Origin: an uncultured Candidatus Melainabacteria bacterium
GTDB taxonomy: Bacteria > Cyanobacteriota > Vampirovibrionia > Gastranaerophilales > Gastranaerophilaceae
DNA length: 37,344 nt
Assembly (NCBI GenBank): GCA_934757245.1
Contig: CAKVLH010000016.1
Span: 1-37,344 of the forward strand
Direction of reading: 5' to 3'
A program made the position numbers and the translations under genes. Positions 773-20,376 of this stretch are shown here, in pieces. The notes below the pieces were generated by a model. The model saw only the letters and a program-made list of their open reading frames with translations, was not told the DNA's origin and did not search any database. How positions within the stretch are numbered: the first letter of the stretch is position 1; each line of letters starts with the position of its first letter.

Positions 773-1411
773 TTAATAAAACATTTCCGGTGCATCTGTT
801 TTTTTTACCATTTTGCCGTCTACAAACAATTTATCTTGTGGTGCGATTTTAATTTCCTCAAAACTTTTTTTGAGCTCGTCTAGTGTCAAGACGTCCTTTC
901 GTACCATTGGAGTTTTAACATCAACCGGCTTGGTAAGGTTTATAAACCAAGTATCAGTTTGTTTATCATAGCCTATATCACTTTCAGCATATATGCTTTT
1001 ATAAATTTTGAAATAACTTGGATTTACAACCTCTTTTATTTTGTCTAGCACAGTATATATGAGTTGAATTGAATTCTTTGTTAATCTTTTTCCACCGATG
1101 AGAAGAGCAGATTTAGTTTGATAATTTTCTTTCTGGATAATTGAAATTAAGTCTTTTTTTACTTTTTCAATTGTTTCTTCGCAATTAAAAAAGTGAAAGC
1201 CGAGAGCTCCTTTATTATCGACTAATCCTCCACCGGAGCAGGTTCTAATGCTTTGCGTCCAAATATCGGCACCTTTTCGCATTGAATCCATAAGCGGTTT
1301 TTTAGCACTGCAATAGAAATAGCTTCTAAACATCTGTTTATCAAAATTTGGGGATGAGACAAAATGTATGTTTGATTTAAAATTTAAACTGTTATAATTT
1401 TGGACGTTCAT
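773..1411 (-). CDS. Hypothetical protein with N-terminal NFKS segment
   Basis: A 212-residue protein of unknown family. It has no signal peptide or membrane segment. Residues 9-16 (LNFKSNIH) resemble the (N/P)xFKG motif near the start of three other unknown proteins in this window, with Ser replacing Gly. The middle contains CSGGG and a GGKR turn, and the C-terminal half is basic with two proline-containing loops. The ribosome-binding site is weak (nothing better than TTATGG before the ATG). It lies downstream of fliF but a strong terminator separates them, so it probably has its own promoter. Function unknown. Confidence 0.7.
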   Translation of the reverse strand: MNVQNYNSLNFKSNIHFVSSPNFDKQMFRSYFYCSAKKPLMDSMRKGADIWTQSIRTCSGGGLVDNKGALGFHFFNCEETIEKVKKDLISIIQKENYQTKSALLIGGKRLTKNSIQLIYTVLDKIKEVVNPSYFKIYKSIYAESDIGYDKQTDTWFINLTKPVDVKTPMVRKDVLTLDELKKSFEEIKIAPQDKLFVDGKMVKKTDAPEMFY

Positions 1412-1495
1412 ACCATAATTAAAACTTCTAAAAAATAAATTTGCTAGGTTAAATTTTAAGTAGGAATTTGAAAGGATTTGCTATATATAGAACTA

Positions 1496-1542: not shown

Positions 1543-1578
1543 TATTAAATTATCCTTGCTTATTAAATTATCCTTGCT
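1543..1578. repeat. 18-bp tandem duplication across the fliF stop
   Basis: TATTAAATTATCCTTGCT is present twice head to tail (1543-1560 and 1561-1578). The second copy holds the fliF stop and last two codons. Because 18 is a multiple of three, the extra copy lies in frame downstream of the stop and does not alter the protein. Confidence 0.9.
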
Positions 1579-3238
1579 CAATCCAGCTTCTGATTTTTTC
1601 ACCGGCTTCGCCTTCATCTACACCGTCAAATTCACGTTTTAATTCTCTTAAAGCATCGCGAATCTCTGCTCCTGAAGTCGGAATTGCAACAGGTTTATTT
1701 TGCTGTTCCAACAAGCCTTGTTGAAGTTGGGATTGTTTTTGAATCATATCGGCGGCATTAACGCTTAAATCTTTAATTTGTTTTTCTTGTGCTTCATTCA
1801 TTTCTCTCAAGCGCATCAATTCTTCTTCTTGAGCTGCTTTTGCAGCGTTAATCTTTTGAGTTAAAGCTTTATGACCAAAGAATAAACCAAATGCAAGGAG
1901 TGCAATTGCCAACCACCAAGGATTACCGTGTTCAGCCTTAATTGGTGCTTTAACGTTCTTATCACCAGCCATAAACGGATCTAAAGAATCCGCAAAAGCG
2001 ATAGTTACGTTTTCAGGATCTGCCTTAGGGCTTGCGGCGTGTGCAACTAATTCTTTCAATTCTTCCAAAGTTAATTCTACAGGCAACGCGTCTTTTTCCA
2101 AAGTTACCGCAATTGAAATTTCTTCCAAAGTTCCCGGAGACATATATTCATTCGTTTGAACTTTAGTTACGCCATATTGAGTTTCACGCGCTGTTCTTGA
2201 ATAGCTTCTATTCTGAGTTGAATCTGAACTTCCTGCAGGTAAACCGTTTGGAAGATAAACACTTACAGCATTTGTATTCTTGTTAACGTCTTGTGTTTGA
2301 TCGCCCAATCCTTCTGAGAAAGTTTGTTCATTAACAGCAGCTTTCTTTTCTGGATCATAAGCAATTGTAAATTTTTCAACAGGCGCTTGTTTTAAGAAGG
2401 TACTAACCGTTGCAACGTATTTACCTTGACCGATTAATCTGTTCAATTGAGTTTGAACTTTCTCTTGCATGTATTTGTCGTTTTCTTGAAGTTTAGCAAG
2501 CATTTCTGATTGAGCGTCAATCATACTGTTATAAACATGTCCATTTGTATCTGTAATTGAAATGTTTTCAGCTTTCAAACCTGAAACACTGCCTAACAAC
2601 AAGTTAGAAACAGCTTTGATTGTACCCATATTAAGAGTTTGTCCAACTGCAACTTGAAGTTGAACGGTTGCAGTAATTGGTTTTTGCATAGAAGAAAACA
2701 TTGTTTGTTCCGGAATAGAAATAAATACAGAAGCGTTTTCAATTCCGTCAATTCTTCTGATTAAACGAGCAAGTTCGCCATCCATTGCACGAACTAATCT
2801 AATTCTTTTATCTTCTTTAGTTGAAGTAAAATCACCTTTATCAAAGATTTCCAAACCAACGTTTTGGTCATACAAACCGCTTTCAACGATTACCATAATC
2901 GCTCTATCACGTTGTTCGGTTGTACATTTTTTCATCCCCGGAGTGCAGTCGCCTTTTTTAAGTCTTAAAACAGACTTTGTACCGTCAACCGCACGAGCTG
3001 CTACAATATTGTTTCTTGCTAATAGGGCTTGAATTTCAAGAGCTTTACCTAAATTGTCGGTAGTAAGTAAATCAACGTCTTCTTTCAAAGGTTCTTTACT
3101 TACATCAATTTGTTCATCTTTAGATTTGTTAGACATTGCGAGTGAACCGCAAATAATAAAAATTACCAACAAAAGAACGATACCACCGGCAACGGAGGCT
3201 AAAAGCACTTTATTCTCTAATAATTTTTTGAAATCCAT
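1568..3238 (-). CDS. fliF: Flagellar MS-ring protein FliF
   Basis: FliF forms the MS ring in the cytoplasmic membrane, the base on which rod, export gate and C ring assemble. The 556-residue length is usual. One membrane helix lies at about residues 11-34 and a second near 442-457 (WWLAIALLAFGLFFG). Between them are the ring-building periplasmic domains, including LLTTDNLGKALEIQALLARN, the DGELARLIRRIDGIENASV segment of the secretin-like YscJ/FliF domain, and VSNLLLGSVSGL. After the second helix comes a coiled coil and a C-terminal tail ending in EKIRSWIEQG, the FliG-binding end. A short insert with two cysteines (KKGDCTPGMKKC, about residues 94-105) is unusual. It follows fliE by 47 bases. 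The expected next gene fliG is absent; a terminator follows instead. Confidence 0.95.
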   Translation of the reverse strand: MDFKKLLENKVLLASVAGGIVLLLVIFIICGSLAMSNKSKDEQIDVSKEPLKEDVDLLTTDNLGKALEIQALLARNNIVAARAVDGTKSVLRLKKGDCTPGMKKCTTEQRDRAIMVIVESGLYDQNVGLEIFDKGDFTSTKEDKRIRLVRAMDGELARLIRRIDGIENASVFISIPEQTMFSSMQKPITATVQLQVAVGQTLNMGTIKAVSNLLLGSVSGLKAENISITDTNGHVYNSMIDAQSEMLAKLQENDKYMQEKVQTQLNRLIGQGKYVATVSTFLKQAPVEKFTIAYDPEKKAAVNEQTFSEGLGDQTQDVNKNTNAVSVYLPNGLPAGSSDSTQNRSYSRTARETQYGVTKVQTNEYMSPGTLEEISIAVTLEKDALPVELTLEELKELVAHAASPKADPENVTIAFADSLDPFMAGDKNVKAPIKAEHGNPWWLAIALLAFGLFFGHKALTQKINAAKAAQEEELMRLREMNEAQEKQIKDLSVNAADMIQKQSQLQQGLLEQQNKPVAIPTSGAEIRDALRELKREFDGVDEGEAGEKIRSWIEQG

Positions 3239-3285
3239 ATTCCTACCCTATATTATTATACACATATATATCAAATATGAGAAGC

Positions 3286-3633
3286 CTAAATCTGAATTTG
3301 CATTATTTTATCATACGCTTGGATGATTTTTCCTGTCGCAGTTGTTGCAACGTTAACCGCGATTTCTGCTTTTGACATTGCAACCATAACGTCGTGAATA
3401 TCAACATTTTCAGAACCCATCATAGCGTCTTTCAACAAGTTATCAGGTGCATTCATCGATGTATTAAGGTTTTCAACAAGTCCAGACATTACGCTTTGAA
3501 AATCTGCGCCTGCCGGTTCTTCAACACGATTCATTCTAGCCGATGGCATATCGCCCCAGCTATCGAGCTTTGTGTGTTGAATTCTAGCTTCTAAATCGTA
3601 TCTTGGATAAAAACCGTTAAACATATTGTTCAC
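3286..3633 (-). CDS. fliE: Flagellar rod / MS-ring adaptor FliE
   Basis: FliE links the MS ring and export gate to the rod. The 115-residue length is typical. The C-terminal region HDVMVAMSKAEIAVNVATTA then AYDKIMQIQI is the conserved FliE signature (VHDVMIAMQKAEIA...AYQEIMRMQ in other bacteria). The N-terminal third is not conserved with the family and is lineage-specific. A strong ribosome-binding site (AGAGGTGA) precedes the ATG. It heads a two-gene fliE-fliF unit and is preceded by a candidate sigma-28 promoter. Confidence 0.95.
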   Translation of the reverse strand: MNNMFNGFYPRYDLEARIQHTKLDSWGDMPSARMNRVEEPAGADFQSVMSGLVENLNTSMNAPDNLLKDAMMGSENVDIHDVMVAMSKAEIAVNVATTATGKIIQAYDKIMQIQI

Positions 3634-7597: not shown

Positions 7598-9223
7598 ATG
7601 TCTACTTTTGGTGATTACAAATCATATAAAAAATATGAACCTGCTTATGCAAACTGGAAAAATAAGCGTGATATTCAAGAATCAAAGCGCATGGCATACT
7701 TAAAGCAAAATCCAAACGAAATGTCAAAAGAAGACATACAACGTGGGCAGGCACTTGTTCGTGCGATTGATATTATGGATGAATATTCACAGAAACGCGC
7801 ACAAGATGTAGAAGTTGCAACTCAATCTGTTGTCTCAATGGCGCTAGAATTTATGATATTTGCCGGCATGGGGTTAGGTGCACTTGTTGGTAAATTAAAA
7901 CCTGTTAATAATTTGATTTCCAAGCATATAAAAAATAAAAAACATGCATCCTTTTTAAGTACGATTATTCCTGTTGCTATTGGTGGTGCATTAGGTACAA
8001 TTGCATCCTTCCCTTTACAGGCTTGGGGTGCGAAAGCAGAAGTTTCGGCATCAAGACGCGGACGTTTTGAAGCAATGCGTAACGAATTAAAAAATCCGAA
8101 TGGATTTGCGGTTCTTACTGATGAACAAATTGCAGAAGCTCGTAAAAACTCAAAAGACATTGTTCTAGATGAAGACAAGAAAACAAATAAAATGACCGCC
8201 AAGCTTTCAGAAGCTTTTGGTATTGGAACGCTAAAATCTATGGCGCTGGATGGCGGTGAATATAAAAAGCAAAGAAAAGCGTTTGAACTCGAACTTGCCA
8301 GTGATAATGCTCATATAAATGATAAAATGAGCCCAAAAGACATTGAAAAGGCTAAAAAAGACCAGCAACTTTTAACAAAACTTGTAGAAAAAATTGATAT
8401 TGCATCACAAGATTATGCAGAAAATGCTGAACTTGCAGCAGGTACGTTTGTAACCGGTGTAATGGCATTATCATTCTTAGGCGATTTAGCGGTATCTAAG
8501 TTGATGAAAATGTGTAAAGTGCAATCTGCGCAAAAGATTTCTGTAGCGACAAAAATTGCAGGATTAGTTGCTTCCATAGGTGCTGCGATTTGGACTTCTC
8601 AAATTACTAAACAAGCTTCAAGAGTGGGCAGGTACAAAGTTAAACAAGAATTAATGCAAAATCCGGAAGCATTCGTCTATGTTGATGATAAAAAAGCTAA
8701 CGAAGTAAAAGATTTTGAAATTAATACAACCAAAAAGCAAAGCTTGATTGAATTCTTAAAATCTGCTTATAAAAATAATAAGGAATACGAAAAACATCAA
8801 AAAGCAACTGCAAAAGACGAAAAACGTTTTTATAAAGCAATTGAAGATTTGGAACTTAGTGAAGAACAAATAAAAGATGCAAAACAATTACAAAAGAATG
8901 CATTTAGAACATTTAATAAAGTCGATGATAATTCACAAAAATATTCTGAAAGCGTAGAAGCTCTCGGTCAAGCAAGCATGTTCCCAATTAATTTGATTTG
9001 TACAGGTATTGGTATGGCAATTGGAATACCATTATTATTAAAGAAATCAAAAACTTCTTTGCAGGAAGCTGAGAAGTTTGCAAAATACTTCGGGATTACG
9101 CTATTAAGCTCTATGCCGGCAGTTTTAGCCAATGCATATATTACTAAACAACAAAAGAAAGCTTCTCGAGTTGCGGACATGCTTGCTATAAATGAAATGC
9201 AAGATTACCGTAACTTTAAGTAG
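7598..9223 (+). CDS. Unknown membrane protein with three internal repeats
   Basis: A 541-residue protein of no family I recognise. I take the ATG at 7598, which has AGAAGGA at good spacing; an upstream ATG at 7532 has none. It contains three repeats at about residues 56-172, 262-362 and 436-540. Each has a helical D..SQ.YAE-like segment, two hydrophobic helices, and then a basic motif: KAEVSASRRGRFEAM with LKNPNGF, ITKQASRVGRYKVKQ with LMQNPEAF, and ITKQQKKASRVADML. The N-terminus (ESKRMAYLKQNPNEM) looks like the tail of a fourth unit. Six membrane helices are predicted by eye. No signal peptide. Charged soluble linkers of 70-90 residues separate the repeats. Function unknown. Confidence 0.85.
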   Translation: MSTFGDYKSYKKYEPAYANWKNKRDIQESKRMAYLKQNPNEMSKEDIQRGQALVRAIDIMDEYSQKRAQDVEVATQSVVSMALEFMIFAGMGLGALVGKLKPVNNLISKHIKNKKHASFLSTIIPVAIGGALGTIASFPLQAWGAKAEVSASRRGRFEAMRNELKNPNGFAVLTDEQIAEARKNSKDIVLDEDKKTNKMTAKLSEAFGIGTLKSMALDGGEYKKQRKAFELELASDNAHINDKMSPKDIEKAKKDQQLLTKLVEKIDIASQDYAENAELAAGTFVTGVMALSFLGDLAVSKLMKMCKVQSAQKISVATKIAGLVASIGAAIWTSQITKQASRVGRYKVKQELMQNPEAFVYVDDKKANEVKDFEINTTKKQSLIEFLKSAYKNNKEYEKHQKATAKDEKRFYKAIEDLELSEEQIKDAKQLQKNAFRTFNKVDDNSQKYSESVEALGQASMFPINLICTGIGMAIGIPLLLKKSKTSLQEAEKFAKYFGITLLSSMPAVLANAYITKQQKKASRVADMLAINEMQDYRNFK

Positions 9224-12648: not shown

Positions 12649-13260
12649 ATGCAAAACAACATCTCCAATAATGCCGGTTTTGGTTTGCAATCAAATTTTC
12701 TAAAAACGAATAATGTAAACATCAATAAAGTGCATTCTAAATCTGGTTCGGCATATTATGCCAAAAAAGGTGAACCTATGTATATGAAGGAAATGGACGC
12801 TGATGAAGACGGCGTTGTTTCGTTTGAAGAATTTAGAGATTACTGCGATGAAAAAGGTATTTCAGTTGCAGAAAGAATTAAAATGACGCAATTGGCATCA
12901 TCGTATCGTACTATGCAAGCTCAAAAGAATGCATCTGAGAAAGTAAAAAAAGAAAGTCAAACTGAAAAACAGACAGAAACTGATAATAAATCAGGAAACG
13001 AAGATTCTGCTGTTTATGCAAAACGTGGCGACGGCAAGTATGATGAGCTTATGGATGCAAATAATGATGATAAAATAACTTACAAAGAGTATATAGAATA
13101 TTGTAGAGAACATTCAAAACCGCAAGAAGAAAAGGCTAACACAAAAGCTGAAACAACTGAAGACGGCGAGTTTAAGACAACAAGTTCCGGCAAGGCAATA
13201 AATGCGTATGCCCAACAAGAATTTCAGCCTGCTGAAGGCAAAGTTGATGATGAAGGTTAG
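12649..13260 (+). CDS. EF-hand protein with two calcium-binding loops
   Basis: A 203-residue soluble protein. Two units of about 36 residues recur: AYYAKKGEPMYMKEM followed by loop DADEDGVVSFEE (50-61) and FRDYCDEKG, and AVYAKRGDGKYDELM followed by loop DANNDDKITYKE (136-147) and YIEYCREHS. Loop 1 is a perfect EF-hand; loop 2 has Asp for the usual Gly at position 6 but keeps D1, N3, D5 and E12. A third AYA motif (NAYAQQEFQP) near the C-terminus looks like the start of a missing third unit. The linker is Lys/Glu/Thr-rich and probably disordered. No signal peptide. AAAAGGAT precedes the ATG at 12649; an upstream in-frame start at 12601 (GTG) is less likely. Probably a calcium-binding or scaffold protein (inference). 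Confidence 0.85.
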   Translation: MQNNISNNAGFGLQSNFLKTNNVNINKVHSKSGSAYYAKKGEPMYMKEMDADEDGVVSFEEFRDYCDEKGISVAERIKMTQLASSYRTMQAQKNASEKVKKESQTEKQTETDNKSGNEDSAVYAKRGDGKYDELMDANNDDKITYKEYIEYCREHSKPQEEKANTKAETTEDGEFKTTSSGKAINAYAQQEFQPAEGKVDDEG

Positions 13261-14799: not shown

Positions 14800-15114
14800 C
14801 TAATCCTTTTTTTTGCCTGTTATTTTATCTTCAATATCACTGCCTATTTTTCCTCCGGCAAGTCCGCCACCCAATACTGCAGCTCCACCTGCTAAGGCTG
14901 GTAATGCTAAACCACCGGTTATAGCTCCGATACCAATTGTTAGTAGGGCTAATGTTAATCCGCCGCCAGTTCCGATTAGCCAACCATCGCCACCTTTAAA
15001 TGAAGGGACATTTTTGGGTTCTTGTGGTACTTCGTGGAGAACTTTGCGTGAGTTTTTGTTTGATAAACCTTTTGTTTGATAATTAACTTGACCTTGAATA
15101 GCTGAAATACGCAT
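14800..15114 (-). CDS. Small glycine-rich membrane protein with VPSFKG motif
   Basis: A 104-residue protein. The N-terminal 38 residues are polar; then comes VPSFKGG (36-42), the motif shared with two long unknown proteins nearby. Residues 44-92 are a hydrophobic hairpin full of Gly and Ala (GGGLTLALLTIGIGAITGG, then AGGAAVLGGGLAGGKIG), which looks like a glycine-zipper membrane segment pair. The C-terminus is basic (KITGKKKD). The ribosome-binding site is strong (AGGAGGT). It could insert in a membrane and oligomerise (inference from glycine-zipper spacing); a role as toxin or pore is only speculative. It has no signal peptide. Confidence 0.8.
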   Translation of the reverse strand: MRISAIQGQVNYQTKGLSNKNSRKVLHEVPQEPKNVPSFKGGDGWLIGTGGGLTLALLTIGIGAITGGLALPALAGGAAVLGGGLAGGKIGSDIEDKITGKKKD

Positions 15115-15213
15115 AAATACACCTCCTATTTTTTATTTAAAACATATTAATGCAAAATAATATTTAATGCAATACTTAAAATCTTGAGATTGCCGATAAT
15201 CATGCTACAACGA

Positions 15214-15241
15214 TTGACATTAATTATTTATAGACTAGAAT
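15214..15241 (+). promoter_or_regulatory. Promoter of tuf
   Basis: A perfect TTGACA at 15214-15219, 16-base spacer, and TAGAAT at 15236-15241. The leader to the ATG is about 55 bases. Confidence 0.6.
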
Positions 15242-15304
15242 TATAATATAACTTAGTATAGTAAGTTAACGTAGTATATTTAATCAAAGAAGGAGATTAA
15301 TCTC

Positions 15305-16513
15305 ATGGCACGTGAAAAGTATGAACGTACAAAACCGCACGTTAACATTGGTACAATCGGCCACGTTGACCACGGTAAAACAACATTGACAGCAGCTATT
15401 ACAGGTGTTATGGCTGCAGCTGGTAAAGCACAAGCTAGAAAATTCGATGAAATCGATGCTGCTCCAGAAGAAAAAGCAAGAGGTATAACCATCTCTACTG
15501 CTCACGTAGAATATGAAACAGATGCTAGACACTACGCACACGTAGACTGCCCAGGCCACGCTGACTATGTTAAAAACATGATCACAGGTGCTGCTCAAAT
15601 GGACGGTGCAATTCTTGTAGTTGCTGCTACTGACGGTGCTATGCCTCAAACTCGTGAACACATCTTGTTAGCAAGACAAGTTGGTGTTCCTAACCTAGTT
15701 GTATTCTTAAACAAATGCGATATGGTTGACGATCCAGAATTATTAGAATTAGTTGAAATGGAAGTTAGAGAACTTCTTTCTTCATACGAATTCGATGGCG
15801 ACAACATTCCATTCATCCACGGTTCTGCATTAAAGGCATTGGAAGCTGTTCAAGCTAATCCAAACATTCAACGTGGTGAAGATAAATGGGTTGACAAAAT
15901 TTGGGAATTGATGGATGCAGTTGATAGCTACTTCCCAACTCCAGAACGTGATTTGGACAAACCATTCTTGATGCCAGTTGAAGACGTATTCTCAATCACT
16001 GGTCGTGGTACAGTTGCTACAGGTAGAGTAGAACGTGGTATCGTTAAAGTTGGTGATGAAGTTGAATTAGTTGGTTTAGGCGAAACTAAGAAAACAACTG
16101 TAACTGGTGTTGAAATGTTCAGAAAACAACTTGATCAAGGTCAAGCTGGTGATAACATTGGTGCTTTGTTAAGAGGTATTGATAAGACTGAAATTCAACG
16201 TGGTCAAGTTCTTGCAAAACCTGGTTCAATTCACCCACACACTAAATTCACAGCTAACGTTTACGTTCTAACTAAGGATGAAGGCGGACGTCACACTCCA
16301 TTCTTCCCTGGTTACAGACCACAATTCTACATCAGAACAACTGACGTTACTGGTTCAATCAAATTCGATGGCGAAATGGTAATGCCTGGTGATAACGTAG
16401 TTATGGAAGTTGAACTTATCGCTCCAGTAGCTATTGAAGAAGGTATGAGATTCGCTATCCGTGAAGGTGGTAGAACAGTTGGTGCCGGTGTTGTAGATAA
16501 AATTATTGAATAA
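15305..16513 (+). CDS. tuf: Elongation factor Tu
   Basis: EF-Tu delivers aminoacyl-tRNA to the ribosome. The 402-residue sequence has all GTPase motifs: GHVDHGKT (19-26), RGITIST (switch I), DCPGH (81-85), NKCD and the GSALKALE segment. Domains 2 and 3 are intact ([13 protein letters not shown], then [16 protein letters not shown]). Codon choice is more uniform than in neighbouring genes, as expected for a highly expressed gene. The Shine-Dalgarno GGAG is part of a 12-base palindrome, GAGATTAATCTC (15293-15304), that abuts the ATG. It stands alone, without fusA, rpsG or rpsJ. Confidence 0.98.
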
Positions 16514-16538
16514 TTGATTTAAAATTATCTATAATATA

Positions 16539-16574
16539 AATAACTCGATTTCTTTTGAAGTCGAGTTATTTTTT
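16539..16574 (+). terminator. Terminator of tuf
   Basis: AATAACTCGA pairs with TCGAGTTATT, extended inward by weak pairs, followed by seven T. It begins 25 bases after the tuf stop. Confidence 0.9.
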
Positions 16575-16598
16575 TATCAATGCTAGAACGACAGTCGC

Positions 16599-16936
16599 GC
16601 CGCGAGCGTTTTTTAGCGAGCGTGAAAGTGCAAGCTCTGCTTGCTACATCCATTTTGTCAACGCTCGTAAGAGCGTAGAAAACTATGACGTATTTTCTCT
16701 TTCTTTTGGTTCTTTTCTTTCTCTTTTTTTCGCAACAAAAGAGAAAGAAAAGGACATTAAAAAAACTTTTTCATAATTTAAAATAATTCTTACTTTTTTC
16801 TTCTTTGAAAAAGCAAGAAGAAAAAAGTAACAAAAAAGAAGAAACTTTAATCGTTTCCTACAACCTTACGGTTGTGGTTCAAATGGATGTAGCGGGTTTA
16901 CCCGCTCTCTCACGCTCGCTAAAAAACGCTCGCGGC
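16599..16936. repeat. 338-bp composite element with 58-bp inverted ends and internal hairpins
   Basis: The ends are inverted copies: GCCGCGAGCGTTTTTTAGCG with AGCGTGA, a variable hairpin, then TACATCCATTTTG on the left; the reverse complement of the same on the right. In each arm the variable hairpin differs (GCAAGC/GCTTGC versus AGCGGG/CCCGCT) but stays paired. Inside are further hairpins (CGCTC/GAGCG, ACAACC/GGTTGT) and long purine/pyrimidine stems built on TTTCTTTCTCTTTT and its complement and on CTTACTTTTTCTTCTTT and its complement. No transposase. The whole 16575-17072 gap has no credible gene. Confidence 0.75.
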
Positions 16937-17072
16937 ACGAATGCCGTTCAATTTTAGTCTTGGCTCAATATTTGCAACATAACTATATTTGTCTTTCGAA
17001 GAATCCAGCTTTCTATAAACTTCGATTTTGTCTTTAAGGCGACGAAGCAAACTAGTTTGTACAATAAAAACT

Positions 17073-18698
17073 TTAAGCGACTTGTTGTTTTTTTGCAGCT
17101 TCTGCTTTTCTCTTTTTATCAAGCATGTTTGTTACATAAATATTTAAGTTTGGAATACCAAGACCTAAAACAAGACCAGAAACCATATAACCTGCAACTT
17201 GTGCAACATTCAATGTTCTTAAACGTTTTCTAACAAGTTTTTTCACTTCCGGTTTATTTTCCAAATCCTTTAACATTTCATTGAATTTTTTATTAAACAA
17301 TTTGCCGTTTTCAGTTTTAGTTGTTGAAATACCTTCTTTTGCAAGTGCTTCAACTAAAACTTCATCTCTTGTTTTTAGGCTGCCATTGAATGTACGCTTG
17401 AATTTACCTGCATCTTTAGAATCTGCTCTATAGTTCATAGTAGTTTTATCCATAGAATCAGCAACAAGTTTATTTACGATATCACCAAGAACAAGCCAGC
17501 TTAAATAACCTAAGAAGTCTTTAGTTAAGCTTTCACGAAGCTCGTCTTTATCACGAGTAGAGAAAATTCTTGAAATAATTGTTAAACCATATAAACCTTT
17601 TAATTGGTTGATAGTAGGCATTTTGCCGTTGAATGACATTTTATCCATGAATTTTCCAGGTGATTTAATGAATTTTATAGGAGACATTTTTAATGTTGCT
17701 AAAATCATTGAAAAGAATGCAGCTGCACTAACAGCTTTCATAGCTTTAAATCCGGCACTTTTATCTTTAGAACGACCTTCTACGCCAACAAAACCGTCAG
17801 AACCTGTTTTTAATTTAGTTAAATACATATTAATAGGCTGAACTGATAAGCCAATCGCGGTTGCAATTCCAAATCCCAACGCAGAACGAGTTTTCATGAA
17901 TTTAGAAACACCTTTAATAAAACTATTTTCTTGAACCATTTTACCAGCTTTAATTTGCTCTGCGAATGCTTCTTTAACATTGTTTTTGTTGAATGAATCA
18001 GAAACAATGAACATGTCGTTCAATAATGATTTCAAGTTAGTCTTACTAACAGTTTTTTTATTTGCAGATTCTAAAATATATTCAGATTGAGCACCTGTGC
18101 TTTCTGTAATTTTATTGATTAAAACTTGTCTTGAAGATGCTGTTTTGTCTTTTGTCCAATCATTGAATTTTACATTTCCATTCAATGATTCATCCAAAAT
18201 CTTTGCAACTTCGTCAATTTTTTCTTTTGAAATTCTAGTGTAACCGTCTTTATCGGCATTTTTTGCGTCCGGATTAAAAGCTTTTACATTTTCTAGAGTT
18301 GATTTGATATAATCTAATTGCGATTTGTTGTCTTTTATTTGTTGAGCTTTGTTTTCTGCAAGGATGTTTAGAGTTTCAGGTGCTGTAAACATGTCATTTA
18401 CGTTGAGCCCAAATTTTTTATTAATGCTTTTTGCAATCAACCAACCGGCGCCTGCGCCAAATAAACCAATACAAGAATCGTTAATTGTCCCCATAACTTC
18501 ACGTCTACCGGTTTCTAAACCAGCTGCAGGACCACGTTTAACAAAGTCAGTAGTAGTTCTTGGTGCAACCATAAAGCAAAAGTCAACGCCATTTGCGCCA
18601 ACTGCTTGATTCGTAGCCAAAAATCTAAGACCTGTGTCTACCGGGCCTTTAAATTGTGGGTGATAGTTCTTTTGTTGTTGATTAAATTGTACTTTCAT
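17073..18698 (-). CDS. Unknown FKG-motif membrane-associated protein, paralogue B
   Basis: A 541-residue protein of no recognised family. It has HPQFKG at 13-18, then VDFCFMVAPRTTTDFV, a RREVMG segment and a hydrophobic stretch (LFGAGAGWLIAKSI). A soluble helical region of about 170 residues follows. Then come hydrophobic helices (SALGFGIATAIGLSVQPINM; KAVSAAAFFSMILATLKM), SRIFSTRDKDELRESLTKDF with a LGDIVNKL helix, and a final membrane helix (GYMVSGLVLGLGIPNLNIYV) with a basic tail. It aligns end to end with the upstream neighbour (18709-20376): shared PRT, E..RRE..G, KT(R/K)S, PT..Q, SR....DK.EL.E....D and LGD. It lies 10 bases after that gene; AAGGT precedes the ATG. Function unknown. Confidence 0.85.
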   Translation of the reverse strand: MKVQFNQQQKNYHPQFKGPVDTGLRFLATNQAVGANGVDFCFMVAPRTTTDFVKRGPAAGLETGRREVMGTINDSCIGLFGAGAGWLIAKSINKKFGLNVNDMFTAPETLNILAENKAQQIKDNKSQLDYIKSTLENVKAFNPDAKNADKDGYTRISKEKIDEVAKILDESLNGNVKFNDWTKDKTASSRQVLINKITESTGAQSEYILESANKKTVSKTNLKSLLNDMFIVSDSFNKNNVKEAFAEQIKAGKMVQENSFIKGVSKFMKTRSALGFGIATAIGLSVQPINMYLTKLKTGSDGFVGVEGRSKDKSAGFKAMKAVSAAAFFSMILATLKMSPIKFIKSPGKFMDKMSFNGKMPTINQLKGLYGLTIISRIFSTRDKDELRESLTKDFLGYLSWLVLGDIVNKLVADSMDKTTMNYRADSKDAGKFKRTFNGSLKTRDEVLVEALAKEGISTTKTENGKLFNKKFNEMLKDLENKPEVKKLVRKRLRTLNVAQVAGYMVSGLVLGLGIPNLNIYVTNMLDKKRKAEAAKKQQVA

Positions 18699-18708
18699 TA
18701 TTACCTTG

Positions 18709-20376
18709 CTATTTATTATCAGCTCTAAAGCCTGTTGTTAATTTTGAATATTTAATATTCATAGGCGTAACTGATGGTTCATCTTTTTTAGTTTCAATGT
18801 TTTGGGCATTTTCTTGAGCAAGCTTTAGTGCTTGTTCATGTTTTTTCTTCGTTTTATGTCTGGTATAAAGTGGAACGATAATCCCTAATAATGCTAATGA
18901 TACACCAAGGTTGGTTACTTGGCAAGCAGAACGCAAGTTTTTAGCATGTTTTATTTCTTTTTCTATAATTTTTGCTTGTGCTTCTGTTGGTTTAGCTCCA
19001 TTTAGACTTTGTTGAGTTTTACTTACAACTTCTTCTGAAGATTTAATATTTACATCTTTAACCCAATGCCAAGCTTTTTTAAATACATTTTCATCACCTT
19101 TAAGAGGTTTTGTATCGTTTAATAATGTAATACCTGTATTCTTTTGGATTACAGTTGCAGCTCCTTTAGCAGCATAATCTCCCAAGAAATATAAGCCTGA
19201 GAATGTTGCAATATCTCTTACAGTAGCTTCTGCAAGTTCGTTTTTATCATCAGCAGCTGCCATACGAGACGCGAATGTTGTTGTTGAAATTACACGTGCT
19301 TGATCCATTGTTGGGAACATTCCCTTAAATTCAAGCATATTCATACTTGGACGTTTCATCATTGACAATAACGAAATTCCAATCATTGAAGAAATTGAAA
19401 TAATCTTTTGTTTCAACAAACCTTCTTTTGCTTTAGAAGTTTCTTCTACATTATCTTTTTCTTTTCCAAAATCATCGTAAATTGGAGCACCTTTAACACC
19501 GGAAATTTTGCCTGTAATCCAGCGGTTAATGTATTGCATAGAAGCAGCTAGTGGAAGAATTACAGCTAAACCTGCTAAACTCTTAGTTTTCACAAGTTTT
19601 TTACTCTTTTTAGCAAATTCTTCAATGCCAACACCTGATTTTTGGAATTCTTTGAAGTATTTAACGGAATCTTCCAGCATAGAATTTACAGAAGATGCGT
19701 TAACTGTTTTGTTACTATCTGCAATTTTAATATTTTCAGCAACATGAACTTTTCCAACTATTTCATTTGCAAGTTTTTTAATTTCTTTTCTTACATTTTT
19801 ATCAGTATCACCAGAACGTGATAGCTCTGCAAGTTTTTTAGAATATTTTTCAATTTCTTCCGGTGTTAAGGCTTCATTAAATTTAACAAAGTTTTTGCCT
19901 TCATAACCTTGAATATTTTCTAAAATATTCTTTAATGATTCTTTAACTTTGTCGTCAGAGCCTGCACTCTTATAATATTCAGAAGCTTTATCTATCAATG
20001 AACTATCAGCCCAACATCTTGACATGTTTACACCTTTTGGCATCATTGCAGGGTTTATACATTTAGCAATGCCAAGTGTTATAAGACTTGGAATTAAACA
20101 GTTTACAACAAGACCTGAAGATTCTCTTCTAAAAGCTTCAAAACCTGCAAACCAGTTTGTCATTGATTCAACAACAGTTCTAGGTAAAATAGCAGATAAC
20201 ATGTCAATAACCGTAACGTTCACCATAGGCATTCTTTCGCATGCTTGAATTCCTGCCAAAGCAATCGCTCCAACACCTTTAAAGTTTGGATTTTGTTTGC
20301 TCTGTTCTTTGTTATGAACGTTATTGCTATTAAATCTGCTAGTAGTATCTACACTAATTTTGTTTATCATACACAT
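18709..20376 (-). CDS. Unknown FKG-motif membrane-associated protein, paralogue A
   Basis: A 555-residue protein, first gene of a two-gene unit and tandem paralogue of the next gene. The polar Asn-rich N-terminus leads to NPNFKG (29-34). Then come VIDMLSAILPRTVVESMTNW, FRRESSGLV and a hydrophobic helix (NCLIPSLITLGIAKCI). A charged helical domain of about 150 residues is followed by KTKSLAGLAVILPLAASMQY, KIISISSMIGISLLSMM, MLEFKGMFPTMDQAR (a second FKG), SRMAAADDKNELAEATVRDI, GLYFLGDYAAKG and a last helix (NLGVSLALLGIIVPLYTRH). The C-terminus is disordered and Lys-rich. The start could be residue 1 or 3. No signal peptide, catalytic motif or known domain seen. Confidence 0.85.
   Translation of the reverse strand: MCMINKISVDTTSRFNSNNVHNKEQSKQNPNFKGVGAIALAGIQACERMPMVNVTVIDMLSAILPRTVVESMTNWFAGFEAFRRESSGLVVNCLIPSLITLGIAKCINPAMMPKGVNMSRCWADSSLIDKASEYYKSAGSDDKVKESLKNILENIQGYEGKNFVKFNEALTPEEIEKYSKKLAELSRSGDTDKNVRKEIKKLANEIVGKVHVAENIKIADSNKTVNASSVNSMLEDSVKYFKEFQKSGVGIEEFAKKSKKLVKTKSLAGLAVILPLAASMQYINRWITGKISGVKGAPIYDDFGKEKDNVEETSKAKEGLLKQKIISISSMIGISLLSMMKRPSMNMLEFKGMFPTMDQARVISTTTFASRMAAADDKNELAEATVRDIATFSGLYFLGDYAAKGAATVIQKNTGITLLNDTKPLKGDENVFKKAWHWVKDVNIKSSEEVVSKTQQSLNGAKPTEAQAKIIEKEIKHAKNLRSACQVTNLGVSLALLGIIVPLYTRHKTKKKHEQALKLAQENAQNIETKKDEPSVTPMNIKYSKLTTGFRADNK

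Follow-up and report, generated by a model that had tools for sequence, protein, structure and literature searches.

Does a short motif that recurs near the N-termini of otherwise different proteins mark a common signal? The question is raised by a stretch of 37,344 nucleotides from an uncultured Candidatus Melainabacteria bacterium of the Gastranaerophilales (contig CAKVLH010000016.1 of assembly GCA_934757245.1; hereafter the window, meaning the whole stretch analysed), in which four proteins carry a phenylalanine core, F-K-G or F-K-S, shortly after their start. A sequence-only reading of the window had written the motif as [NPS]-x-F-[KNT]-G and proposed it as a signal common to unrelated proteins. 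This reading had caught the tip of a real feature, although its pattern was too narrow and one of its cases of independence was false. The feature is a wider, two-part tag composed of an M-x-[IV] start, an acid-poor polar leader and [NPSTA]-F-[KTRS]-[GSA]; it is enriched in the Gastranaerophilales, its Phe core is conserved, and an upstream DNA element and the tag predict each other. The motif defines a real and partly co-regulated class of proteins, the regulon being partial and apparently dedicated. Judged from the sequences, the proposed role in targeting, anchoring or processing is plausible.

The motif in the window and its literal pattern

The four motifs sit where the sequence-only reading had placed them, with LNFKSN spanning residues 9-14 of its protein:

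14989..15009, minus strand: codons of VPSFKGG (residues 36-42) in a 104-residue glycine-rich protein, gene 14800-15114, leader MRISAIQGQ...
18642..18662, minus strand: codons of HPQFKGP (residues 13-19) in a 541-residue protein, gene 17073-18698, leader MKVQFNQQQKNY
20272..20292, minus strand: codons of NPNFKGV (residues 29-35) in a 555-residue protein, gene 18709-20376
1370-1387, minus strand: codons of LNFKSN (residues 9-14) in a 212-residue protein, gene 773..1411, leader MNVQNYNSLNFKS

None of the four proteins reached the Pfam cut-off. Their leaders are polar, and the first 35 residues contain no hydrophobic segment of the kind that marks Sec, Tat or lipoprotein signals; the claim that a Sec signal peptide is missing agreed with what we saw, since neither inspection nor a hydropathy filter, the only means used, gave any sign of one. 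No tagged protein of the window has the prepilin pattern (a short basic leader, G-F-[ST]-L-x-E and a hydrophobic helix); prepilin-like proteins with K-G-F-T-L do occur, and the hydropathy filter took them out. The 104-residue protein, in which VPSFKGG closes the polar leader, and the 212-residue protein both satisfy the two-part rule. The 555-residue protein probably starts at Met3 (position 20370), because many of its close homologs are 553 residues long. Elsewhere in the window, a 203-residue EF-hand protein (12649-13260, plus strand) has an Asn-rich start, MQNNISNNAGFGLQSNF, which may perhaps be a diverged leader.

The 541- and 555-residue proteins are paralogs (26% identity, E 8e-15) with their FKG positions aligned, and therefore these two cases of the motif are not independent. 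For this pair the claim of a motif shared by unrelated proteins fell. The adjoining gene pair is present in 25/25 Gastranaerophilales genomes. There is also a third paralog, which is about 500 residues long.

As a signal, the literal pattern [NPS]-x-F-[KNT]-G was rejected, since its N-terminal frequency was at the level of shuffled sequences: in two 400-kb contigs it occurred in 3 of 382 proteins against a mean of 1.9, and in 2 of 393 against 2.0. Comparison with internal segments of the same proteins left the claim of an N-terminal preference divided, with 3 versus 0.9 (maximum 3) in one contig and 2 versus 2.6 in the other. The literal pattern was too narrow: a signal emerges only if an M-x-I start and a polar leader are required together with the wider class F-[KTRS]-[GSA].

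Enrichment and conservation of the two-part leader

For the wider tag we used about 3.8 Mb of DNA (GC 0.345), comprising contig stretches of a few genomes and shorter loci. An SMC protein of the window matched 80 loci. Gene starts were called with Shine-Dalgarno sites; an earlier choice of starts by coding score had cut leaders off, for example that of the 212-residue protein, and was replaced. The resulting 3325 proteins were grouped into 1309 families. The wide rule required a start of M, a nonacidic residue and [IVL], a leader with at most 12% D/E, and then [^DE]F[KRTSN][GSA] within about 64 residues. Families were pre-filtered for low hydropathy before counting, so that their lack of a hydrophobic N-terminus is by selection.

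Under this rule, 52 of 1071 Gastranaerophilales families were positive, compared with 21.9 +/- 4.7 in shuffled sequences (maximum 34 in 100 runs), and among families of at least 130 residues the count was 38 of 836, compared with 17.9 (maximum 29) in internal segments. The density of F[KR][GSA] in proteins with non-hydrophobic M-x-[IV] starts was 5.95 per 1000 at residues 11-20 and 0.99 beyond residue 100 (the SMC family supplying about one of 23 weighted hits), whereas proteins with other starts gave 1.18 and 1.05. The start class and the F motif were associated (odds ratio 2.12, p 1.5e-4). Eight of ten decoy motifs showed no significant association with the start class; the other two were F-[ILVYFM]-[GSA] (odds ratio 1.97, p 0.009) and N-[KRTSN]-[GSA] (1.61, p 0.019). 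By genome, the excess of tags was clear in genome G005 (16 vs 6.6 +/- 2.2) and weak in others. A small sample of 284 kb from 20 class relatives that have no FliF match, and in 19 cases no FliP either, gave no excess (3 of 157 families vs 1.5 +/- 1.1). When all M-x-[IVL] N-termini were searched for motifs, the best solution was a core with F, but the controls scored high too. A consensus MxIxxI...FK was discarded as proof, because the proteins from which it was built had been picked for the motif.

The Phe core is conserved where the rest of the leader changes. In the family of the 555-residue protein, P, F, K and G are invariant in 22 sequences, and FKG is kept in 120/120 of the homologs listed, with leaders of varying length. 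The third paralog has F[KRQT][GSN] in 117/120 of the homologs listed, the remaining three having FGG or YKG, while its leaders are 47% identical on average, compared with 86% for the following 40 residues. The family of the 541-residue protein occurs in 25/25 genomes with FK conserved and diverging leaders. At one locus with an 18-member family, the leaders MQVNKTSGTN, MHSNLS, MISTINSAQSNSIS and MLVSSVQYNPT differ and F[TKS][GS] is constant. Distant relatives of the 541-residue protein elsewhere in the class have leaders that end in SPKFSG, ILFSG, PRFSG or PTFGRG, with two of the six homologs listed beginning downstream of the core position. Seven loci from these other members of the class, two of which had been picked because such a relative lies there, supplied 47 soluble families; a polar leader followed by F[KRTSN][GSA] occurred in them 11 times against 3.6 +/- 1.8.

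The tagged proteins are mostly without known domains. Ten of 46 examples picked for the tag were scanned singly; seven had no Pfam family at E 0.001, and the other three were a HAD-type hydrolase, a protein with pentapeptide repeats and one with a sub-threshold ABC1-kinase match. Across all 46, a Pfam scan added an HTH protein and two members with CheR. Some of the tagged proteins belong to a cluster that also contains what we take to be FtsH/Clp-like (AAA+-like) ATPases.

An upstream DNA element and its relation to the tag

Upstream and leader DNA of 68 tagged genes was compared, and nine matches between unrelated genes were found. Five of them lie wholly upstream, two extend into the leader, and two more touch leader DNA (one at the start codon); several centre on GCAAAAAATTTTTTTACGTGTTTTAATA. 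The element is promoter-like, has 26 bp and the consensus GCAAAWWWWWTTTTBASVDGKTTTWW, and is located mostly 5-50 nt ahead of the start codon in a subset of the tagged genes. A matrix refined from 26 sites scored above 20 bits in 41 of 3325 genes and in none of the reversed or complemented upstreams; at 12 bits there were 79 genes, compared with 8 and 3 in the reversed and complemented upstreams. The exact consensus has 97 matches in 23/25 Gastranaerophilales genomes (G001 and G023 have none). Outside this group it was absent from all 52 genomes of the class that were examined, of which 18 have a FliF relative at 238-397 bits, 14 weaker FliF matches and 20 none, an absence that is partly compositional because the sampled ones are richer in G+C (0.44 and 0.49 vs 0.345). 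The consensus read backwards has no match in all 77 genomes, and this control, being in the same genomes, is unaffected by the difference in G+C.

One clear site and one tentative one precede genes of the window:

1419..1444, minus strand: promoter-like element GCAAATTTATTTTTTAGAAGTTTTAA, matching the consensus exactly and ending 7 nt ahead of the 212-residue gene's start codon
20432..20459, minus strand: possible, degenerate version of the element upstream of the 555-541 operon, matrix score -0.8 bits

Even when 2 mismatches are allowed, the window has no match other than the first (0.02 expected), and the corresponding 28-bp matrix site, 1417-1444, scores 23.4 bits. The second is indistinguishable from background in the window, because it falls below the 95th percentile over all genes, 0.4 bits; the ortholog of the operon scores 10.7 in genome G004 and 0.7 in G005. 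The 104-residue gene has no upstream element (best score -20.3 bits).

Having dropped six seed families, we compared the tag in the 42 other element families, 39 of which have a soluble N-terminus, with that in the remaining families. The relaxed tag was present in 24/39 element families versus 222/1037 others (p 1.4e-7), the strict core in 14/39 versus 118/1037 (p 9e-5), and I or V at residue 3 in 21/39 versus 196/1037 (p 2.1e-6). For a blind test, the prediction of a tag was fixed beforehand and ten element sites outside the stretches already read were chosen by DNA alone. Seven of the ten downstream genes satisfied the strict rule by script (MNLSVSTVSANPQFKG, MRILPIT...ETVFTA, MQVQRVQNNNLSFTA, MQITNNFQLNFKS, MNIIILN...NVHTFKG, MKVNNNYSKIHFTG and MILKICP...SVSFKS; p 7e-8 against 52/1071, a background of 4.9%). 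The other three were a narrow miss, MISAINGNNPSFTC, an untagged family of 539 residues, and one site without an open frame from ATG. Six of the seven positives match none of the 3325 proteins (E 1e-3), and one is related to a family already among them. A motif search in the element genes, including seeds and 8/10 blind genes, returned [NSQ][PIVT][SN]F[KTQ][GSA] with a log-likelihood of 139.1, compared with at most 106.4 in 12 random sets; without the seed families and the blind genes it returned a core ending in F (92.6, compared with at most 82.0 in 20 random sets).

These results bear on chance and composition, by which Asn/Ser-rich N-termini would yield the pattern under a rule tuned on the same data. 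Such an explanation would agree with the shuffled-level frequency of the literal pattern, with the choice of rule classes after looking at the data, and with the one F decoy that is also associated with the start class. It does not predict that sites chosen blindly by DNA alone lead to strict tags in seven of ten cases, that non-seed element families are enriched for the tag, or that the core is deeply conserved, and we regard it as already disfavoured and hardly credible. The earlier suggestion of a protein class with a common N-terminal design, marked by the motif, is supported by the enrichment of the wider tag, the conserved F-[KR]-G and the predictive DNA element, and not by the literal pattern.

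A spreading 5' cassette, in which promoter element and leader codons were copied jointly before different genes by recombination, would account for the nine DNA matches between unrelated tagged genes, above all for the two that run from upstream into the leader and the one at the start codon. Yet the five matches confined to upstream DNA include no leader codons, DNA similarity is missing from most pairs of tagged genes, and 54 of 62 non-seed tagged families are without the element at 12 bits. We consider this origin highly improbable; it is, in any case, compatible with a functional tag.

A leader without any sorting role is improbable as well. Here the start codons and the AT-rich polar leader would aid the start of translation from short 5' ends, F-x-G would cap a helix or strand, and co-regulation would explain the rest. 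Several element sites stop 5-7 nt before the ATG and leave little room for ribosome binding, and a low-confidence model of the 555-residue protein (mean pLDDT 52.5) predicts coil for residues 1-32 and a helix from 33, right after FKG. Many tagged genes, however, have normal Shine-Dalgarno sites, and the 555-residue family keeps FKG despite changes in leader length. Decoys in which L, I, V or Y replaced F were unassociated with the start class, although the decoy F-[ILVYFM]-[GSA] was associated.

Some further upstream sequences were noted. A sigma-28-type promoter before tagged genes was rejected, with 0 of 50 upstreams compared with 4 or 10 of 629 for two patterns. AGTGTG occurs in 7 of 50 tagged and 11 of 629 other upstreams. 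The sequence AGTGTGTGTA, directly at the ribosome-binding site, is common to tagged genes of G005 (129761, 132740, 134064 and 8814), and the upstream of the 104-residue window gene has AGGAGGTGTATTT. Another window gene (7598-9223, plus strand), whose 541-residue product, MSTFGDYKSYKKYEP, has no Pfam match, is without the element; its relatives in G005, G020 and G009 carry the element upstream.

A second export system and a possible role of the leader

The window also encodes components of a second flagellum-derived export system:

1568..3238, minus strand: FliF-type M-ring protein of the second export system (YscJ_FliF, 7.6e-33)
3286..3633, minus strand: FliE-type protein of the same system (FliE, 4.2e-17)

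Orthologs of this FliF occur at E <1e-180 in 51 of 146 class genomes, and the gene order FliE-FliF-unknown-FliH-FHIPEP recurs in relatives (window 1568-3633, minus strand; loci L193, L198, L204 and L209), the protein of 340-350 residues between FliF and FliH having no Pfam match. Export apparatus genes of the second type, a prerequisite for early substrates of a type III secretion system, are present in these genomes: FliP and FlhB in 25/25 and FHIPEP in 23/25 (G005 and G011 have none). Flagellin is missing in 9/25 genomes, eight of which retain rod-type proteins, while G024 has none. The 541-residue family and the strong FliF homolog occur in 52 and 51 of 146 genomes, only G109 differing, a co-occurrence that also reflects shared ancestry. 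Weak relatives of the 541-residue protein were found in 11 more genomes, all with intermediate FliF; in 4/11 they lie about 10-12 kb from FliP, and at the two loci that were read, other genes separate them from FliO, which is about 9 kb away. Two more families were noted. A protein of about 495 residues that matches only the C-terminal half of FHIPEP is an extra copy in the 25 genomes (for example G005:C26:103292-104347), and a family starting MGMAASQARLLxxTAR, like flagellar rod and axial N-termini, has neither tag nor element (G005 361204, G013 287585, G024 221544, L070 6671 and others).

According to the excerpted text of PMC8983047, early subunits of the flagellum depend on small hydrophobic residues close to the N-terminus and on a docking motif that must not lie nearer than a minimum distance. 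Such a small hydrophobic residue, I or V at position 3, was found in 21/39 non-seed element families. The core F often lies at residues 8-18, and by analogy the position of F-[KTRS]-[GSA] may be comparable to that of the gate-recognition motif, with binding to FlhB being hypothetical. A shared sequence upstream of many unlinked genes, as in an hrp-box regulon, was likewise found, its promoter activity being predicted from sequence.

The explanation that we favour as a whole, which comes near to being probable, is a lineage-specific leader with a Phe core, spread over dozens of unrelated families with a partial common element and acting as a Sec-independent signal. The leader consists of a hydrophobic M-x-I-x-x-I start, an acid-poor linker (Asn, Ser, Gln, Thr, Pro) and [NPSTA]-F-[KTRS]-[GSA]; the element, GCAAA-W5-TTTT-B-A-S-N-N-G-[TG]TTT-WW, would be the promoter of a dedicated regulator; and the leader would direct targeting or export independently of Sec. 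More tentatively, the second, flagellum-derived type III apparatus might read the leader, its hydrophobic start acting on the export gate and its Phe core on a docking site, a reading of the tag suggested by analogy with flagellar early subunits. That the whole forms a dedicated delivery programme, in which the flagellum-derived secretion system, retained even where flagellin is missing, serves dozens of scattered substrates recognised by the tag (M-x-I-x-x-I ... F-K-G), with a promoter box for a subset, seems to us unlikely. In that case the tag would be the first sequence motif common to the substrates of any type III system, and it would come from a gut bacterium related to the Cyanobacteria.

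A rather unlikely alternative places the leader inside the cell, as an anchor to the membrane, the pole or an assembly or as a protease site, with the flagellum-type system uninvolved. It would fit the FliE and FliF genes without the element, the known type III substrates in the window without the tag, and a tagged set that includes HTH and presumably AAA+-like members. Against it, no candidate receptor or protease was found, and the tagged families show the great diversity that is frequent in sets of secreted proteins.

Several results weigh against the explanation that we favour. The upstreams of FliE and FliF, which would share the promoter in an hrp-box-like arrangement, scored far below the element threshold (FHIPEP, FliP and FlhB were not among the genes scored). 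Genome G005 has tagged proteins without a second FHIPEP, the metagenome-assembled genome retaining FliOPQR and FlhB. The tag is absent from FlgD, from the hook protein FlgE and from the ASQAR proteins of the lineage, and an F at residues 8-18 is spaced more closely than Salmonella FlgD tolerates in the excerpt of PMC8983047. The element was found at 12 bits in only 8 of 62 non-seed tagged families, among the window's named proteins only the 212-residue gene has it, and the unbiased motif search without seeds regained only part of the core. There was no excess of tags in G024 (7 vs 5.3 +/- 2.0), and clustering of tagged genes was not significant (6 neighbour pairs vs 3.0; 75 of 1000 permutations). 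Several tagged proteins look membrane-bound or regulatory.

Among known systems, PEXEL of Plasmodium and RxLR of oomycetes are short N-terminal host-targeting motifs found in many unrelated, fast-evolving proteins after a Sec-type signal peptide; the present leader likewise offers one short N-terminal motif, but it is bacterial and has no Sec-type signal peptide. The rod and hook export signals of Salmonella FlgD, FlgE and FlgG, as described in the excerpt of PMC8983047, resemble it in their hydrophobic residues at 3-7, polar linker, downstream motif and absence of a Sec signal, and a related export gate is encoded here. Unlike them, one F-[KTRS]-[GSA] core extends here over dozens of unrelated families, often with shorter spacing, and the window's own FlgE and FlgD are without it. 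The HrpL/hrp-box regulon of Pseudomonas syringae, in the portion of PMC4149516 at hand, also unites diverse genes at dispersed sites by a single box that is recognisable in the DNA sequence; there the box is proven and the type III genes lie inside the regulon, whereas here the element is known from sequence and FliE and FliF are without it. For Melainabacteria, the excerpts of PMC3787301 and PMC5877343 report incomplete flagellar sets, with one genome listed as having two flhA genes, and take partial flagella as genome reduction or incompleteness. By comparison, we found a distinct second set of FliP and FlhB in 25/25 genomes, nine of them without flagellin. Among the papers that the literature searches listed, no title or opening of an abstract announces such a motif, promoter box or non-flagellar type III system in this lineage.

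The class described here consists of proteins mostly without known domains, from a largely uncultured gut lineage, and it can be found by the tag in the protein or by the element in the DNA. Were the tag an export signal, it would provide a sequence rule for type III substrates, which the excerpt of PMC8983047 says share no common peptide sequence. It would also give a reason for the partial flagellum in non-motile members of the lineage.

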